This document shows, piece after piece, positions 12,332-20,683 of a stretch of 59,278 bases of DNA. A program made the translations under genes and the position numbers. Numbering within the stretch: the stretch's first letter is position 1; each line of letters starts with the position of its first letter. The stretch is from contig JABBBT010000033.1 of the NCBI GenBank assembly GCA_018607365.1, forward strand, positions 1 to 59,278, in the 5' to 3' direction. The notes beneath the pieces were generated by a model, which was given only the letters and a program-made list of their open reading frames with translations, was not told the DNA's origin and ran no database searches. This DNA comes from SAR86 cluster bacterium. Lineage in GTDB: Bacteria; Pseudomonadota; Gammaproteobacteria; Magnimaribacterales; D2472.

Positions 12332-13483
12332 ATGACATATTCAAAGAAAGATGAATCTATAAATAATCACTTTTTAAATGAATCCGATGCAATAGAAAGG
12401 ATTTTTAATCATATCGATAATGGAACCACCGATCTTGGTGATACAACTTGGAAAGAGCCGGTAAGTAATTATTATTCAAAAGATCGTTTTGATGCTGAAA
12501 TTTCTTTACTGAGAAGATCTCCTATTCCTTATTGTCCCTCAGCAGGGTTACCTGAAAATGGAAGCTATATAGCTAGAAGGGCATCAGGAACACCCTTGTT
12601 AGTGGTTAGAGGTGAGGATGGTATCGTTAGAGCCTTTATAAATGCATGCAAACATCGTGGTATGAAAGTTGCTGATGGAAGTGGGTGCAAAAAGAAAGCT
12701 TTTGTTTGTCCATATCATGCATGGGCTTATGGCTTAAATGGAAAGCTTAAAAACATTCCAGGCCAAGAGGCCTTTCCAGATTTAGATACCAATGATTTGG
12801 GGCTTACAGAAATAAGCGCAATTGAAAAGGGTGGAATTGTATATGTAATGCAGGAAGGAAAGATAGAAGATCATATGTTAGAAAACGCTATTGATTTTTT
12901 TGAACCTGAACAAAAAATGTTTAGTTATGGCGAGGTTGTCGATGAGGCTAACTGGAAACTATTAACAGAAACTCTTCTAGAGGGCTATCATATAAAATCT
13001 CTTCATAAAGATACTTTTTATCCTTTTGGCCTAGATAATATCAATCTTGTAGAGATATCTGGCTCCAACTCACGAGTTATTTTTCCTTTCAAAAGAATAG
13101 AAAAAATAAGGCATATAGATCCAAATGAAAGAAAATTAAATGGTGTTGCTACTTCAGTATTCCATCTATTTCCTAATGCAAGCGTTTCTATTTTATCAAA
13201 GCATTCAAGTCTAACAATCATGGAGCCCTTATCACCATCCAGTGTAAAAATAGTTAGTTATCTTATATACAATCCAAAATTAAATGGCAAAAATATATCC
13301 CTTGAAGAGGCAGAGAAGGATGCTCAGTTTGTTAATGAGTCAGGTCAAAATGAAGACAGAGAAGCTGCCAGAGCAATACAAGAAACAGTCACAACTTCAG
13401 CTAATACATATCTTACTTTTGGTTTTTTTGAAAAAGCAATTGTTAACTTTCATAAACATCTGACCCTAAGCCTTAATAAATAG
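12332..13483 (+). CDS. Aromatic ring-hydroxylating dioxygenase alpha subunit / Rieske (2Fe-2S) protein
   Basis: Rieske motifs CKHRGMKVADGSG and CPYHAWAYGLNG. Confidence 0.85.
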   Translation: MTYSKKDESINNHFLNESDAIERIFNHIDNGTTDLGDTTWKEPVSNYYSKDRFDAEISLLRRSPIPYCPSAGLPENGSYIARRASGTPLLVVRGEDGIVRAFINACKHRGMKVADGSGCKKKAFVCPYHAWAYGLNGKLKNIPGQEAFPDLDTNDLGLTEISAIEKGGIVYVMQEGKIEDHMLENAIDFFEPEQKMFSYGEVVDEANWKLLTETLLEGYHIKSLHKDTFYPFGLDNINLVEISGSNSRVIFPFKRIEKIRHIDPNERKLNGVATSVFHLFPNASVSILSKHSSLTIMEPLSPSSVKIVSYLIYNPKLNGKNISLEEAEKDAQFVNESGQNEDREAARAIQETVTTSANTYLTFGFFEKAIVNFHKHLTLSLNK

Positions 13484-13496
13484 AGTCACTGACAAG

Positions 13497-13524
13497 TTTA
13501 CAAACTATTATTTATATATATACT
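13497..13524 (+). promoter_or_regulatory. Candidate sigma70 promoter of arginine leader (TTTACA-N16-TATACT)
   Basis: TTTACA at 13497-13502 and TATACT at 13519-13524; would start RNA about 1-3 nt before the leader ATG. Confidence 0.45.
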
Positions 13525-13532
13525 GATTTGCA

Positions 13533-13577
13533 ATGATTAACACAAATACACGATTAAGACGGGTTCCCGCTTTATAG
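13533..13577 (+). CDS. Putative arginine leader peptide MINTNTRLRRVPAL*
   Basis: ATG ATT AAC ACA AAT ACA CGA TTA AGA CGG GTT CCC GCT TTA TAG; three Arg codons; stop overlaps the antiterminator 5' arm. Confidence 0.75.
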   Translation: MINTNTRLRRVPAL

Positions 13578-13628
13578 CTGGGTCTTTTCTATTGTGAATT
13601 AGACCCAGCTTATGCTGGGTTTTTTTTT
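13566..13628 (+). promoter_or_regulatory. Transcription attenuator: alternative hairpins upstream of arg operon
   Basis: Protector CCCGCT(13566-71)/AGC-T-GGG(13576-82); antiterminator AGCTGGGTCT(13576-85)/AGACCCAGCT(13601-10); terminator ACCCAGC(13603-09)/GCTGGGT(13614-20)+T tract. Confidence 0.8.
13603..13628 (+). terminator. Rho-independent (attenuator) terminator
   Basis: ACCCAGC TTAT GCTGGGT followed by an uninterrupted T tract. Confidence 0.9.
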
Positions 13629-13646
13629 ATAAAAATAAAGGTAATT

Positions 13647-14648
13647 ATGAAAAATTTTATTTCTACGCAGGATTGGTCAAAATCAGATCTACAAGATATT
13701 TTAGATTATGCAAAAGAGCTAAAAGTAAATAAGTTTCAGGATAATTTAAAAAATAAATCTATTGCATTGATGTTTTTTAATCCATCTATGAGAACTAGGA
13801 CTAGCTTTGAGCTTGGCATCCAGCAATTAGGAGGACTTGCAGTAGTCCTTCATCCTGGAAAAGATGCTTGGCCAATTGAATTCAAATTAAATGAAGTCAT
13901 GGATACAGATTCAGAAGAACATATTATAGAAGTTGCAAAAGTGCTCTCTGAATATTGTGATTTAATAGCAATAAGGGCATTTCCTAAATTTATTAATCTT
14001 GAAGAAGATTTATCAGATAATGTTATTAAAAGTTTTGCAAAGTATGCAACTGTTCCAGTAGTTAATATGGAAACTATTACCCATCCTTGCCAAGAGCTTG
14101 CTCATATTTTAACTATGCAAGAACAGCTAGGCGATCTTTCTGGAAAAGATTACTTATTAACTTGGACATATCATCCAAAACCTTTAAATACTGCAGTAGC
14201 AAATTCATCCTTATTAATTGCAAGCAAGTTTGGTATGAACGTTAAGTTGCTTTGTCCCACAGAAGATTATTTACTTCATGATACATATATGCAGAATGCA
14301 GAAGAAAACTGTAATGCTAATGGCACCTCATTCTCAATAACTCATGACATCAAAGAAGGTTATAAAAATGCTGACGTTGTTTATGCTAAGAGCTGGGGTG
14401 CTCTTAGTTATTATGGAAATCCTGAGGATGAAAAGTTAATCAGAGATAGATATAAGCATTTTATTGTTAATGAAGAAAAAATGGCAATGACTAATAATGC
14501 TAAATTCAGTCACTGTCTTCCTCTAAGAAGAAACATCAAAGCAACAGATGGAGTTATGGATTCTGATTATTGTGTTGCCATACAAGAAGCAGGAAATAGA
14601 ATGCACGTTCAAAAATCACTACTATCAACTTTATTAAAGGATAAATAA
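13647..14648 (+). CDS. argF': N-acetylornithine carbamoyltransferase
   Basis: FFNPSMRTRTSFELG; HPGKDAWPIEF; METITHPCQELAH; LTWTYHPKPLNTAVANS; FSHCLPLRRNIKATD: Xanthomonas-type AOTCase signature as I remember it. Confidence 0.85.
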   Translation: MKNFISTQDWSKSDLQDILDYAKELKVNKFQDNLKNKSIALMFFNPSMRTRTSFELGIQQLGGLAVVLHPGKDAWPIEFKLNEVMDTDSEEHIIEVAKVLSEYCDLIAIRAFPKFINLEEDLSDNVIKSFAKYATVPVVNMETITHPCQELAHILTMQEQLGDLSGKDYLLTWTYHPKPLNTAVANSSLLIASKFGMNVKLLCPTEDYLLHDTYMQNAEENCNANGTSFSITHDIKEGYKNADVVYAKSWGALSYYGNPEDEKLIRDRYKHFIVNEEKMAMTNNAKFSHCLPLRRNIKATDGVMDSDYCVAIQEAGNRMHVQKSLLSTLLKDK

Positions 14649-14651
14649 AAA

Positions 14652-15842
14652 ATGAAAAAAATTGTATTAGCTTTTTCAGGCGGATTAGACACAAGTTTCT
14701 GTGTTCCATACCTAATTGATAAAGGTTTTGAGGTTCATACTATATTTGTAAATACTGGGGGAACACCAAAGAAAGAGGAGGAAAAAATTACCAAAAGAGC
14801 AAATGAACTCGGAGCGAAAAAACATATTAATGTAAATGTTGATAATCTTTTATGGAATCAAATTATCAAGCCATTAGTTTGGTCTGGCGCTTTATATCAA
14901 GATAAATATCCAGCACTATGCTCGGATAGGTATCTTATAGTTTCAGAAGCAATAAAGCTCTGTAAAAAATTAAATACCAAATATATTTCTCATGGCTGCA
15001 CAGGAATGGGTAATGATCAGGTAAGGTTTGATCTCTCAATTCAAGCATTTGGCAAATACAAGACCATTACTCCTATAAGAGAAATACAAAATAAAGTTAA
15101 TGATGTAAGGGGGTATGAGCAGAAATATCTAGAAGATAAAGGTTTCAAGGTGTCATCTATACACTCGAAATATAGTATCAATGAAAACCTTATGGGGGCT
15201 ACTGTTTCTGGATCTGAAATAGACGAATGGAAAGAACCTTCCAAAGAAAGCTATATCCTTTGCAATACACCAGACAAATACCCCTCTAAATTAAAAAAGA
15301 TAGTAATAGAATTCTCAAAGGGTGAGGCTAAAAAAATTGATGGTGTTGCTATTAAAGGCCCAGAGCTATTAAGAATACTAAACAAGTTAGGTGGCAAGTA
15401 TGGCATTGGGAGAGAAATTTTTGCCAGCGACACGATTATAGGAATTAAGGGAAGATTTCTTTTTGAGTCTCCTGGTATAAATATACTTCAGTCTGCACAT
15501 AGAGCTTTAGAGGAATCTATTTTTACTGATAAACAAAACTTTTTTAAGCCTATTGTCGGTAAAAAATGGGTTGAATTAGTTTATGGTGGCTTTTATTTTG
15601 ACCCTTTAGCAAGAAATCTCGAAAATTTTTTACAAGATATTGAACTGCCTGTGAACGGCAAAGTAACAATGTTACTTTCACCAGGAAAGTCAGAAGCAGT
15701 AGCTGTTGAAGCTAAAAAAATACTAGTTAGTAAAGAAGCCATATATGCTCAGTCTGCCTCATGGGGTGTCGAAGAGTCAGCTGGTTTTATTAAATTACTT
15801 GGTCAAAGCACTGCAACTTGGACAGATATAAATAAAAAGTAA
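14652..15842 (+). CDS. argG: Argininosuccinate synthase
   Basis: LAFSGGLDTSFCVPYL P-loop; SHGCTGMGNDQVRFD. Confidence 0.93.
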   Translation: MKKIVLAFSGGLDTSFCVPYLIDKGFEVHTIFVNTGGTPKKEEEKITKRANELGAKKHINVNVDNLLWNQIIKPLVWSGALYQDKYPALCSDRYLIVSEAIKLCKKLNTKYISHGCTGMGNDQVRFDLSIQAFGKYKTITPIREIQNKVNDVRGYEQKYLEDKGFKVSSIHSKYSINENLMGATVSGSEIDEWKEPSKESYILCNTPDKYPSKLKKIVIEFSKGEAKKIDGVAIKGPELLRILNKLGGKYGIGREIFASDTIIGIKGRFLFESPGINILQSAHRALEESIFTDKQNFFKPIVGKKWVELVYGGFYFDPLARNLENFLQDIELPVNGKVTMLLSPGKSEAVAVEAKKILVSKEAIYAQSASWGVEESAGFIKLLGQSTATWTDINKK

Positions 15843-15843
15843 A

Positions 15844-17154
15844 ATGAACCAAAACTTTACTAAAGACACTATTTTAAAACTCCTCAGCGGGATGAGCAGT
15901 GAAAAAGAGATAAGAAAGTACTTAGATAGATTTTCTTCTGATGACTTTAGGTTTGCTGTAATTAAAGTTGGTGGAGCGGTAATAGAAAATGATTTAGAAA
16001 ATTTAATATCCTCTTTAGTATTTTTAAATGAAGTTGGCCTTAGACCAATTATTGTTCATGGAGGTGGTCCTAAGCTTTCAAGAGCACTAGAGGAAAAAAA
16101 AATACAGTTTTCATTTAAAGATGGCCAAAGAATTACTTCTAAAGAAGTACTAGATGAAGCTATTGATGTATTTAAGGCTGAAAATCAAAAAATTACATCT
16201 GCCTTGATTGAAAAGAATGTATCGGCTGTATCTTTGATTGATGATATTTTTAAGTGCATCATTCAAGATGAAGAATTGGGATTCGTTGGGTCTATTATTG
16301 AAACTAATTCAAATAAAATTAGGGATATTATTTCAAATGGAGGAGTTCCAGTAATAGCTCCAATGGGATATACAGATAAAAAACAAATAGTAAATATTAA
16401 TGGCGACAAGGCAACTCAGGCACTGGCAAAAGAAATATCTCCTGATAAAGTGATTTTTTTAAGTGAGATTGGGGGAATCCTTGATGGTTCAGATAACTTA
16501 ATCTCAACGATAAACATTAAAGATGATTATGAGAGATTAATGTCTGAAGGATGGCTCCACTCAGGAATGAAACTTAAGCTTAAAGAGATTAAGCTTCTCC
16601 TTGATCATCTTCCTTCTAACAGCTCGGTATCAATAACAAAACCTCTCTATTTAAATAGAGAACTTTTTACCGATGCTGGCTTTGGAACCTTGGTAAAGGC
16701 GGGCCATCACATAGATAAACTTAAAGAGTTAGATAATGTAAATAAAGACCACATTACCTCAATCCTAGAATCAGCATTTAAAGGAAAACTCGATAAAAAT
16801 TATTTTATTAATCAAGACAAAGAATATTATGTAAGTGGTTGTAGTAGAGCTTTGATAGCGATATCTCACTATCAAAAGATAGCTTATATGGATAAATTCG
16901 CAGTTAAAGCTGACGCTAGAGGAGAGGGGCTTGGTAATGCTATATGGAATAGGATGACAGCTGACCACAAAAAGGTTTTTTGGAGATCTAGACCAAATAA
17001 TTCAATAAACTTCTTTTATAAGAATGTTTGTGATGGCTTTCAAAAAACCAATGAATGGAATATCTTTTGGATTGGTATTAATAATCTAGATGAGCTTACC
17101 GAATGCATAAGAATGGCATCTAATCAACCTGAAACAATTGCATATGAAAAATAA
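15844..17154 (+). CDS. argB: Bifunctional N-acetylglutamate kinase / N-acetyltransferase (NAGK-NAGS fusion)
   Basis: N-terminal amino-acid kinase fold (KVGGAVIEN, HGGGPKLSRAL, NINGDKATQALA) plus C-terminal GNAT-like region (DKFAVKADARGEGLGNAIW). Confidence 0.85.
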   Translation: MNQNFTKDTILKLLSGMSSEKEIRKYLDRFSSDDFRFAVIKVGGAVIENDLENLISSLVFLNEVGLRPIIVHGGGPKLSRALEEKKIQFSFKDGQRITSKEVLDEAIDVFKAENQKITSALIEKNVSAVSLIDDIFKCIIQDEELGFVGSIIETNSNKIRDIISNGGVPVIAPMGYTDKKQIVNINGDKATQALAKEISPDKVIFLSEIGGILDGSDNLISTINIKDDYERLMSEGWLHSGMKLKLKEIKLLLDHLPSNSSVSITKPLYLNRELFTDAGFGTLVKAGHHIDKLKELDNVNKDHITSILESAFKGKLDKNYFINQDKEYYVSGCSRALIAISHYQKIAYMDKFAVKADARGEGLGNAIWNRMTADHKKVFWRSRPNNSINFFYKNVCDGFQKTNEWNIFWIGINNLDELTECIRMASNQPETIAYEK

Positions 17155-18085
17155 AATCAATATAGCGATGATTGGTGGTAGAGGTTTTGTAGGTCAGGAG
17201 ATAATTTCTATACTAAATGACCACCCAATATTTATGCTAAGTAAAGTTTTTTCTAAAACAGCTGCAGGTAAAGTAGTAGAGGGCTACAAGAAATCATCTA
17301 ATCTAAAGTACTGCCTTCTTGATATATCAAATTTGCAGTTAGAGGATATTGATATAGCAATCATGGCATTGGCTAATGATGAATCTGAATCCTATATAAA
17401 CATTATTAAAAAAGATTATCCAAATATAATATTTATTGATCTAAGCTCTGACCATAGATTAGATAAAACATGGGATTATAGGGTTCCCGAGCTTGCAACA
17501 AAAAAAGCAACTAAATTCATCAGTAATCCAGGATGCTATGCATCTGCAATACAATTTTCTTTGGCACCAATCAAAAATCTTATTTCTGGAAGAGTTAGTT
17601 CTATAGGCATCTCTGGTTATAGTGGAGCTGGAGCCTCACCAAATGACAAAAATAACCCTGTCAATCTTAAGAATAATATTATTCCATACTCTCTTACAAA
17701 TCATCTTCATGAGCAAGAGGTTTCAAAGCAATGCTATGAAGAAATATCTTTTAGCCCTCATGTCGGCAATTTTTTTAGAGGTATTCTTATAACATCTCAT
17801 ATACAACTTAAAACAAGTCAAACGAATCAAGAAATTTTAGGAACCTTTATTGATTTTTATCAAAACTCTAAATTAATCGAAGTTCTAGATGATATACCTA
17901 TGATTAATAAGGTTGCTAATACCCACAAGGTTTTAATAGGCGGAATATCTATTGATAATTCAGGAGTAAACTTAACAGTATGTTGCGCTCTTGATAACTT
18001 GCTTAAGGGAGCTGCTACACAAGTTATACAAAATCTTAATTCAGCATGTAGCCTAGATGAATTAATAGGAATAAATTATGAATAA
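17144..18085 (+). CDS. argC: N-acetyl-gamma-glutamyl-phosphate reductase
   Basis: GGRGFVGQEI; SNPGCYASAIQ; GYSGAGASP; ORF track starts at 17138, start probably ATG 17144. Confidence 0.9.
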   Translation: MKNKINIAMIGGRGFVGQEIISILNDHPIFMLSKVFSKTAAGKVVEGYKKSSNLKYCLLDISNLQLEDIDIAIMALANDESESYINIIKKDYPNIIFIDLSSDHRLDKTWDYRVPELATKKATKFISNPGCYASAIQFSLAPIKNLISGRVSSIGISGYSGAGASPNDKNNPVNLKNNIIPYSLTNHLHEQEVSKQCYEEISFSPHVGNFFRGILITSHIQLKTSQTNQEILGTFIDFYQNSKLIEVLDDIPMINKVANTHKVLIGGISIDNSGVNLTVCCALDNLLKGAATQVIQNLNSACSLDELIGINYE

Positions 18086-19361
18086 AAAACTATGGAATAA
18101 CAAAACAAGTAATATATCTGAGGAAATTACGTCTTTTTTAGCTGGTGAAGATATTGAGTTGGACAAATTTATATTCATTTATGATGTCGATGCATCTCTA
18201 GCCCATGTCAAAGCTCTGCAGTCTATAGGGATAATAAAAAAAAATGAGCTAACAAAGCTTAGTAAAGCTCTTAAAGTTCTAAGAACGAAGTTTATTAACG
18301 GCACATTTAAGTTAACTAATAAATATGAGGATTGTCACTCAGCCATTGAGTTCTATTTGACTAAAGAGCTTGGCGATCTTGGTAAAAAAGTTCATACAGG
18401 TAGAAGTAGAAATGATCAGGTAATGGTGGCAATGAGATTATTTGCTAAAAAAAATCTTATTGAATTTAAAATAAAGAATAAATTAATTGCTGAAACTTTT
18501 TTAAACTTAGCAAAGAAACACAAAGATTTACCAATGCCAGGATATACTCATCTTCAAAGAGCCATGCCTTCTTCATGGGGCTTGTGGTTTTCTTCATATG
18601 CTGAATCCTTCATTGATAATGTAGATCTAATTAACAATACTATTGATTGGGTTGATTCAAACCCATTGGGAAGTGCGGCTGGTTATGGAGTTGCAATACC
18701 ATTAAATAGAGACTTAGTAACCAAGGAGTTAGGTTTTAGTAGAACTCAGTTAAATAGTTTGTATGTCCAGAATAGCAGAGGTAAGTATGAGATGCAGATA
18801 CTTAATACCTTGAAGCAATCAATGTTAGATATAAGAAAATTTTCATGGGATATGAGTTTATTTTTATCACAAGAATTTGATCTATTATCTATTGATAGTA
18901 AGTATTCAACAGGATCGTCAATTATGCCTAACAAACACAACCCAGATGTCATAGAGATATTAAGAGCAAATTATTCAATTTTAGCTGGCTTTTCATCGGA
19001 ACTGGAAAATTTACTCTCTCTTCCTAGTGGTTATCATAGAGACCTTCAATTAACTAAAAGAAGTCTAATAAATGGTTTTCACACTTCACTTAAATCATTA
19101 GATATTATCCCAGCTTTACTAAAGACAATTAAGATAAACAAAACTAACTCCAACAAATATATAGATAATGAAATGAAAATGACTGACAAAGTTTACTCGC
19201 TTGTTTCTGATGGAGTTCCTTTTAGAGATGCATACAGTCTAGTAAAAAATTCTGATGACCATTCTTTATTACCTGAAAGAAAATCTTTAAATCACTCTAT
19301 GGGATCGCCAGGAAATTTGAATCTCAATTTGTTAGAGAAGAGACTAAAAAAGCAAAAATAA
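18078..19361 (+). CDS. argH: Argininosuccinate lyase
   Basis: HTGRSRNDQV; PGYTHLQRAMP; GSSIMPNKHNPDVIE. Confidence 0.94.
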   Translation: MNKKLWNNKTSNISEEITSFLAGEDIELDKFIFIYDVDASLAHVKALQSIGIIKKNELTKLSKALKVLRTKFINGTFKLTNKYEDCHSAIEFYLTKELGDLGKKVHTGRSRNDQVMVAMRLFAKKNLIEFKIKNKLIAETFLNLAKKHKDLPMPGYTHLQRAMPSSWGLWFSSYAESFIDNVDLINNTIDWVDSNPLGSAAGYGVAIPLNRDLVTKELGFSRTQLNSLYVQNSRGKYEMQILNTLKQSMLDIRKFSWDMSLFLSQEFDLLSIDSKYSTGSSIMPNKHNPDVIEILRANYSILAGFSSELENLLSLPSGYHRDLQLTKRSLINGFHTSLKSLDIIPALLKTIKINKTNSNKYIDNEMKMTDKVYSLVSDGVPFRDAYSLVKNSDDHSLLPERKSLNHSMGSPGNLNLNLLEKRLKKQK

Positions 19362-19408: not shown

Positions 19409-20683
19409 ATGCAAATACCTGTTAGATTCAGAGTTATTTTTATGTCATTCTTGGCTGTTTTTATTTGCTACATAGATAGAGTGAATATTTCAGTTGCCAT
19501 TATCCCAATGCAAGAACAGTTTGGCTGGAGTGAGTCTCAGGTAGGCATTATTTTTTCTTCTTTTTATCTAGGTTATATTTTTACTATGACTATTGGTGGA
19601 TTTTTAGCTGATAGATATGGTGGCAAAATAGTGCTTGGGTATGGCCTTCTTCTTTGGTCATTATTTACAGTTTTAACTCCAGCATTTGCATATAATGGAT
19701 TTTTTGCAATCTTAACAATAAGAGTCTTAATGGGTCTAGGTGAGGGCATAACCTTTCCTTCTTGGCATGCCTTATATGCTAGATGGATTCCTTTTGAAGA
19801 GAGAACAAGATCAATTGCAATTACAAATAGTGGTATTTCTGTTGGGACTGTTTTTGGATATCTTGTAACAAGTTTAATAATTGCTAGCTATTCATGGGAG
19901 TGGGTCTTTTACTCTTTTGGAATGTTGGGAGTAATTTGGTTCTTTTTTTGGCAGCAAAACGTTACATCATACCCAAGTGACCATAAAGATATATCCTCCA
20001 AAGAGCTTGATTTTATAATTAGAAAGGCACCTGCAAACTCTTCAGCCCCAAAAATTTCTATATTAAAAGTAATAACAAATCTTCCTTTTCTGGCGATAAC
20101 AGTAGCTACCTTTTGTCATAATTGGGCATTATTTATCTTTCTTTCTTATTTACCAAAATTTATTAATAGCCCTGAATCATTAGGAGGATTAGGAATAGCT
20201 TTAGATTCTAGTGTTTTTATCTTTTTAATTTTAATTCCAAGTTTTTTTTCAGTAGTCTCCCTTATTGCTGGAGGTTTTTTAGCAGACAACCTTATAAAGA
20301 AAAAATATCAAGTCATTAAGGTGCGCAAAGTTCTTAACTCTATCGGTTTCTTTGGATCTGCCTGTTGTTTATTTTTAATACCATTTCAAGATTCACACCT
20401 TTTTATAATTTCTCTTTTATGTGCAACAAATATTTGTACTGGAATTGCTGCTGGAGGTTTTGGAGTCAATCATGCTGATTTAGGTCCAAGATATACAGGG
20501 ACATTGGTTGGTATCTCTGGAAGTCTAGGCATGATCGCAGCAGTGATTGGTCCATTAGCTGCAGGCTTCATACTTGATATAACTAATTCTTGGGAATTAA
20601 TATTTCATATATGCTCATACATGTTGTTGTTTGGTGGTATTTTCTATCTGATTTTTGCAAGTACTGATAAGCAATTCGAATAA
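19409..20683 (+). CDS. MFS transporter (anion:cation symporter-like)
   Basis: 12 hydrophobic segments; GGFLADRYGGK motif. Confidence 0.82.
   Translation: MQIPVRFRVIFMSFLAVFICYIDRVNISVAIIPMQEQFGWSESQVGIIFSSFYLGYIFTMTIGGFLADRYGGKIVLGYGLLLWSLFTVLTPAFAYNGFFAILTIRVLMGLGEGITFPSWHALYARWIPFEERTRSIAITNSGISVGTVFGYLVTSLIIASYSWEWVFYSFGMLGVIWFFFWQQNVTSYPSDHKDISSKELDFIIRKAPANSSAPKISILKVITNLPFLAITVATFCHNWALFIFLSYLPKFINSPESLGGLGIALDSSVFIFLILIPSFFSVVSLIAGGFLADNLIKKKYQVIKVRKVLNSIGFFGSACCLFLIPFQDSHLFIISLLCATNICTGIAAGGFGVNHADLGPRYTGTLVGISGSLGMIAAVIGPLAAGFILDITNSWELIFHICSYMLLFGGIFYLIFASTDKQFE

Follow-up and report, generated by a model that had tools for sequence, protein, structure and literature searches.

To our knowledge, arginine is not among the amino acids usually named as subject to leader-peptide transcription attenuation (trp, his, thr, ilv, leu, and phe). 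Seliverstov et al. listed histidine, threonine, and phenylalanine as attenuator-controlled, and arginine genes of other species as under T-box control (PMC1262725). The regulatory codons of trpL occupy positions 10-11 of its leader peptide (PMC1183508). Short leader ORFs that respond to arginine have been described in other settings. Ribosome pausing on orf34 of Salmonella at low arginine alters the structure of the mRNA (PMC6386406), and rare Arg codons in the short leader peptide rbfL of S. aureus sense arginine limitation (PMC13009471). In P. aeruginosa, a leader peptide and a stem-loop lie 5' of carAB, which is common to arginine and pyrimidine synthesis (PMC4997734). Our search of the openly accessible literature turned up no arginine biosynthetic operon controlled by leader-peptide transcription attenuation; most subscription papers were outside its scope, and novelty is unproven. 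An earlier reading of the locus, made from the sequence only, had suggested that an arginine-sensing version may be new. No such case for arginine biosynthesis turned up in the open literature; leader ORFs of other kinds (orf34-speF and rbfL) are known to sense arginine.

Bacteria of the SAR86 cluster appear to activate their arginine synthesis genes on arginine shortage through a tiny leader gene with one rare Arg codon. If true, this would fill the arginine gap in leader-peptide attenuation, and would do so in an abundant uncultivated marine group that apparently has no ArgR.

The leader and the arg operon

The window, the whole 59,278-nucleotide stretch of DNA that was analysed, is one contig of a 1.18-Mb, 89%-complete SAR86 genome. 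It carries an arg operon of the N-acetylcitrulline type, argF'-argG-argB/A-argC-argH, identified by NCBIfam matches (Table 1); the gene order and the argF' start at 13647 are those given by the sequence-only reading. The MFS transporter gene that follows argH, and that possibly shares its transcript, is found downstream of both the arg-operon version and the TonB-receptor version of the locus. Immediately 5' of the leader is a Rieske-type oxygenase gene (12332-13483) with weak similarity to glycine betaine monooxygenase, and relatives carry other genes at this position.

Table 1. Features of the arginine leader and of the genes that follow it in the window
Feature	Positions	Strand	Basis or remark
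Promoter: -35 TTTACA (13497-13502), 16-nt spacer, -10 TATACT (13519-13524)	13497-13524	+	Promoter scan; conserved in homologues
Leader ORF, 14 codons, MINTNTRLRRVPAL and stop	13533-13577	+	ATG at 13533 to TAG at 13577
CGG, invariant putative regulatory Arg codon (codon 10)	13560-13562	+	41/41 distinct leaders
Auxiliary Arg codons CGA (codon 7, 13551-13553) and AGA (codon 9, 13557-13559)	13551-13559	+	
Segment 1, 5' arm of 1:2 protector hairpin (partner 13576-13582)	13565-13571	+	
Segment 2, overlaps stop codon; partner segment 1 or 3	13576-13585	+	
Segment 3, partner segment 2 (antiterminator) or 4 (terminator)	13601-13610	+	
Segment 4 and U tract of intrinsic terminator	13614-13628	+	No variation among 22 distinct arg leaders
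argF', N-acetylornithine carbamoyltransferase, first controlled gene (putative)	13647-14648	+	NCBIfam NF003384, 540 bits vs cut-off 288
argG	14652-15842	+	NCBIfam match, slightly below own curated cut-off
argB/A	15844-17154	+	NCBIfam match
argC	17138-18085	+	NCBIfam match
argH	18078-19361	+	NCBIfam match
MFS transporter gene	19409-20683	+	48 nt 3' of argH

The leader is preceded by a sigma-70-type promoter whose -10 hexamer ends 8 nt 5' of the leader ATG; only 0.1% of random positions have a promoter of equal score just upstream. The 14-codon ORF with three Arg codons that had been noticed from the letters alone (13533-13577) is present as described, and the perfect 10-bp inverted repeat reported beside it (AGCTGGGTCT, 13576-13585; AGACCCAGCT, 13601-13610) is exact in the sequence. 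The second repeat arm also pairs, as had been proposed, with GCTGGGT (13614-13620), which is followed by eight T (13621-13628), to form an intrinsic terminator between the leader ORF and argF'. Likewise, CCCGCT (13566-13571) inside the ORF can form the suggested protector stem, and this 1:2 pairing is kept in homologues. A terminator scan recovered the leader terminator (2 sites in the region vs 0.4 expected). The sequence-only reading had recommended a fold check, and the 150-nt leader proved more stable than all 200 of its shuffles (z = -4.1). An RR-containing short ORF is not rare by itself, occurring 34 times among the 994 short ATG ORFs of the window, and the case for the leader ORF therefore rests on its conservation.

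No Shine-Dalgarno sequence was found at the leader ORF of the window. The start codon lies 6 to 9 nt 3' of the -10 hexamer in all 49 leaders (28 arg and 21 receptor). Given the lack of a Shine-Dalgarno sequence and the closeness of the -10 to the ATG, the leader mRNA is probably leaderless, with its start codon at about +1, an inference made without a mapped transcription start.

Conservation of the leader and of its CGG codon

Among genomes of the family, argF' was found in 47, and the same leader element lies 5' of it in 28 of these, in genera g1, g2, g4, g7, g8, and g9. Conservation of the leader at argF' orthologues, which the sequence-only reading had proposed as a check, is observed: the ORF, one fixed Arg codon, the alternative stems, and the terminator are kept in the 28 leaders. 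The promoter (TTTACA-16-TATAMT) is near-invariant down to its 16-nt spacing, the ORF has 14 codons in every case, and its stop codon, UAG (UAA once), falls at or within segment 2. The encoded peptides diverge widely (MNNYLTQERRVSAL, MLQIKSQLRRAAIL, MNCFNQINTRRQLI, and MSSQNNKNLRGQLI).

The alternative pairings are also preserved. The 2:3 and 3:4 helices can form in every one of the 48 leaders tested; 1:2 can do so in almost every arg leader, the short 1:2 stem being weak in two (G142 and G140). Pairing of the terminator arms holds in 100% of cells. In G113 and G106 a C-G pair of the terminator is replaced by U-A. Compensatory changes in the 2:3 helix comprise C-G to U-A in 4 sequences and U-A to A-U in 2, and its observed score was reached by 1 of 500 shuffles. 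Segment 1 drifts yet stays more complementary to segment 2 than shuffled versions do (combined p ~3e-12, uncorrected for relatedness). Most stem columns are invariant or altered on one side only, leaving classical covariation thin; segment 2 is tied to two partners (segments 1 and 3), as is segment 3 (segments 2 and 4), and this leaves little room for free covariation.

A scan of 85,462 species genomes for the exact pattern found the element in SAR86-type genomes, with one other match, in Pantoea, that turned out to be a plain terminator. Beyond the order, a class-wide covariance-model search produced nothing stronger than weak matches; the top one (43 bits, G208) was a plain terminator without the ORF. 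Matches of 30 to 37 bits and ~112 nt in g9 and g4 genomes were the end of another gene plus a terminator, with no attenuator.

Three genus-g5 genomes with argF' show no visible leader. At eight g5 loci (L024, L023, L028, L031, L035, L039, L043, and L032) a different, longer short ORF with a variable N-terminus lies 5' of argF'. It mostly ends in RRRRSI (KLRSL in L032) before the stop codon and is followed within ~10 nt by a small hairpin and then argF', with no terminator; possibly this is a separate arginine-codon control acting on translation. In further g5 genomes (L026, L033, L036, L040, L041, L042, and L044) the ORF 5' of argF' resembles the end of panD. These ORFs terminate in SIPTQRxRSL/V, resemble the tails of the g5 leader, and precede a short hairpin (e.g., CCATCAGAAATGATGG); the g5 leader may come from a panD tail, or the reverse.

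All 41 distinct leaders, arg and receptor together, have an in-frame CGG within the leader ORF, nearly always 5 codons before the stop, while the mean pairwise identity of the remaining ORF is 49% (minimum 21%). The other Arg codons are less constant. AGA occupies codon 9 in 23 of the 28 arg leaders and codon 11 in three, CGA at codon 7 is not general, and neither AGA at codon 9 nor CGA at codon 7 is conserved in most TonB-receptor leaders. In genus g7 the order is CGG-AGA instead of AGA-CGG with the frame kept, and in two arg leaders (G090 and G086) CGG is the sole Arg codon. The sequence-only reading had taken the cluster of Arg codons as the sensor; an in-frame Arg codon is indeed conserved, but tandem arginine is not invariant, and only CGG at codon 10 is. 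The next nucleotide after CGG is G in 93% of leaders, and given this a nucleotide-level role of CGG is not fully excluded.

A regulatory codon is expected in theory to be slow and easily depleted. CGG is the rarest codon of the window, used once in 17,396 codons (51 CDSs) versus 425 AGA. Codon rarity alone is an oversimplified explanation for regulatory codons (PMC1183508). In G093, a 95%-complete relative, tRNA-Arg genes were found for the anticodons UCU, CCU, ACG, and UCG, and no CCG anticodon was seen among its tRNAs read, suggesting that CGG is presumably decoded by the minor tRNA-Arg(UCG). In the window's own genome 24 tRNAs were found, and a pattern search for tRNA-Arg(CCG) in 16 genomes gave only two matches, unchecked as tRNAs.

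A proposed second target at the same chromosomal site

A covariance model built from the arg leaders was run on 203 genomes of the order. Its matches of 44 to 104 bits comprise the 28 arg leaders, one remnant, and elements in 21 genus-g9 genomes, which are without argF' and argH. In these 21 the element lies ~100 nt 5' of a gene for a TonB-dependent receptor (~790 aa), and the leader keeps the promoter, the short ORF with CGG, segments 2-3-4, and the U tract. The assignment of the element to the arg operon in the sequence-only reading is upheld in 28 genomes, but the element is not restricted to that operon.

The remnant (L164/L224 of G084) is an arg leader identical to that of G140, without an arg operon, that runs into pieces of a broken downstream MFS gene; it looks like what a deletion left behind, or a mixed bin.

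Receptor orthologues with at least 67% identity occur in 24 genomes of the family, namely the 21 and three without the element before the receptor (G129, G089, and G138). G138 (L179) is the only genome with both; its TonB receptor gene and the terminator of that gene come first, followed by the arg leader and the arg operon beginning with argF'. All four of the g9 receptor loci examined have the window's flanking genes and thus lie at the same chromosomal site. The shared order is two acyl-CoA dehydrogenases, two small ORFs, a variable insert, the MFS transporter, a thioredoxin-like gene, an exchanger, and an SDR, where the insert is either leader and arg operon or leader, receptor, and P450. 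A tRNA-Leu(UAG) gene lies at most 1 kb upstream in 13 of the 21 receptor-type genomes. In G101 a beta-propeller-like ORF (L170:10686-11300) and a cytochrome P450 gene (L170:11254-12663) follow the receptor gene.

Given that every element-bearing genus has an arg-operon version (except for the G084 remnant), the receptor version is most simply inferred to have arisen when other genes took the place of the arg genes behind a switch that was kept. The receptor-type set includes the published SAR86A assembly (JH611156.1), and contigs of many other named isolates carry the element, which makes a binning artefact unlikely. The receptor presumably imports arginine or an arginine-containing substrate, its substrate being inferred. 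That a leaderless, rarest-codon arginine attenuator has been swapped, at a single position in the chromosome, between arginine synthesis and TonB-dependent import is a serious but tentative proposal, and we stop just short of favoring it. If true, the attenuator would be the first regulatory evidence that this receptor of the outer membrane, which has no other assignment, takes up an arginine source in arginine-dependent SAR86. Re-use of one switch for the synthesis and the import of a single nutrient would also be a clear case in nature of regulation that outlasts its pathway.

Proposed mechanism, rival explanations, and known systems

We consider it highly likely that the leader is a ribosome-mediated transcription attenuator of the trp/his type that measures charged tRNA-Arg. 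Its anatomy, the conservation of codon and frame, and the gene context are observed directly; with no expression data, the transcription start, translation, stalling, and read-through are inferred. As judged from sequence, the leader meets the features of this attenuator class. In the proposed mechanism, transcription would begin at about the leader ATG and the peptide would be made from a leaderless mRNA. With Arg-tRNA in good supply, the ribosome would clear CGG at codon 10 and reach the stop codon in segment 2, masking that segment, so that the 3:4 terminator would form and transcription would end before argF'. When Arg-tRNA is scarce, a ribosome stalled with CGG in its A site would mask segment 1 but not segment 2. 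Segment 2 could then pair with segment 3 before segment 4 exists, no terminator would form, and the arg operon would be transcribed. Without translation, 1:2 and 3:4 are predicted to form together and to cause termination. In relatives without arg genes, the same switch would operate in front of the TonB-dependent receptor gene.

Modeling of the ribosome footprint, its downstream edge assumed to lie 13 nt from the A-site codon, is consistent with these steps. With CGG in the A site, segment 1 is masked and segment 2 is free, and each of the 48 leaders can then form 2:3. A ribosome whose A site holds the stop codon masks segment 2, and 3:4 then forms in each of the 48. Once segment 4 exists, the equilibrium favors 2:3 over 3:4 in no more than 9 leaders and the terminator in the other 39. 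Antitermination must therefore be kinetic in those 39, with 2:3 forming first, as in the classical model. The sequence-only reading had judged the geometry to fit trp/his logic, and the conserved ORF, stems, and terminator, together with footprint folding, support it.

ArgR, for which that reading had advised a search, was undetected in the window's genome, and none of the 203 genomes of the order exceeded the PF01316 cut-off, while the control search gave a match in 9 of 14 reference genomes, including E. coli. Both the failure to detect ArgR and the nature of the genes behind the leader, an arg operon or, where argF' and argH are missing, a TonB receptor at the equivalent locus, speak for the attenuator reading.

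One Arg codon is few for an attenuator, and this counts against our reading. A single invariant Arg codon, with no other in 15 of the 21 TonB-receptor leaders, and the extreme rarity of CGG would suit a general translation-speed sensor, in which a fixed slow codon times the ribosome against the polymerase and the leader reports translation capacity, not arginine. We regard such a sensor as unlikely, given that 26 of the 28 arg leaders hold two or three Arg codons, that the target is arginine synthesis with ArgR undetected, and that a generic pause needs no Arg codon specifically.

Two further explanations set the ORF aside. CGG could be a nucleotide recognition motif in an RNA element that binds a metabolite or protein, the ORF being incidental; GCTGG, CCCAGC, and GCTGGG are, like CGG, strongly conserved as nucleotides. 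However, CGG keeps its frame and its distance to a start codon just 3' of the -10, the frame stays constant while the start varies between ATG and GTG, and ORF length is nearly fixed while the length of the 2-3 loop is variable. No Rfam family, riboswitch, or T-box reached threshold over the leader, with no T-box match even at a permissive threshold; 13 sub-threshold Rfam matches there were all far under their gathering scores and were taken as chance. We find a binding element very improbable. The hairpin and U tract make a perfect intrinsic terminator, which might be the ordinary end of the preceding gene or part of a small RNA gene; argF' would then be transcribed from its own promoter further downstream. 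To this we give hardly any credence: a promoter, conserved along with the terminator, separates it from the upstream gene, the 18 nt from U tract to argF' leave no room for another, the upstream gene varies across genomes while the element is constant, and the segment-2 copy of the terminator arm would be left unexplained.

Collectively, the finding stands, with a stronger case than was originally made for it. The attenuator reading implies that one ultra-rare codon acts as the sensor and that the leader ORF is leaderless, and it offers a hint, from regulation, as to what a TonB-dependent receptor may take up. Among described systems, arginine T-boxes and ArgR are arginine responsive, as the SAR86 leader is proposed to be, but the leader has no T-box match and ArgR is undetected. 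The stem-loop of P. aeruginosa carAB differs in responding to pyrimidines, not arginine. S. aureus rbfL resembles the proposed switch in sensing through rare Arg codons; in contrast to the SAR86 leader, it acts on translation through a paused ribosome that blocks the rbf ribosome-binding site, has no attenuator hairpins, and targets a biofilm regulator. Salmonella orf34 of speF likewise has Arg codons in its leader ORF (consecutive AGG-CGG), but this ORF has 34 codons, a Shine-Dalgarno sequence, and no intrinsic terminator, and control involves Rho, mRNA decay by RNase G, and translation of the ornithine decarboxylase gene. With E. coli trpL no sequence relation has been shown, and the SAR86 leader differs from it in specifying arginine rather than tryptophan, in its one invariant CGG at codon 10, in probably being leaderless, and in also lying upstream of a receptor gene. 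It resembles trpL in its 14-residue peptide, its 1:2, 2:3, and 3:4 alternatives, and its U-tract terminator.
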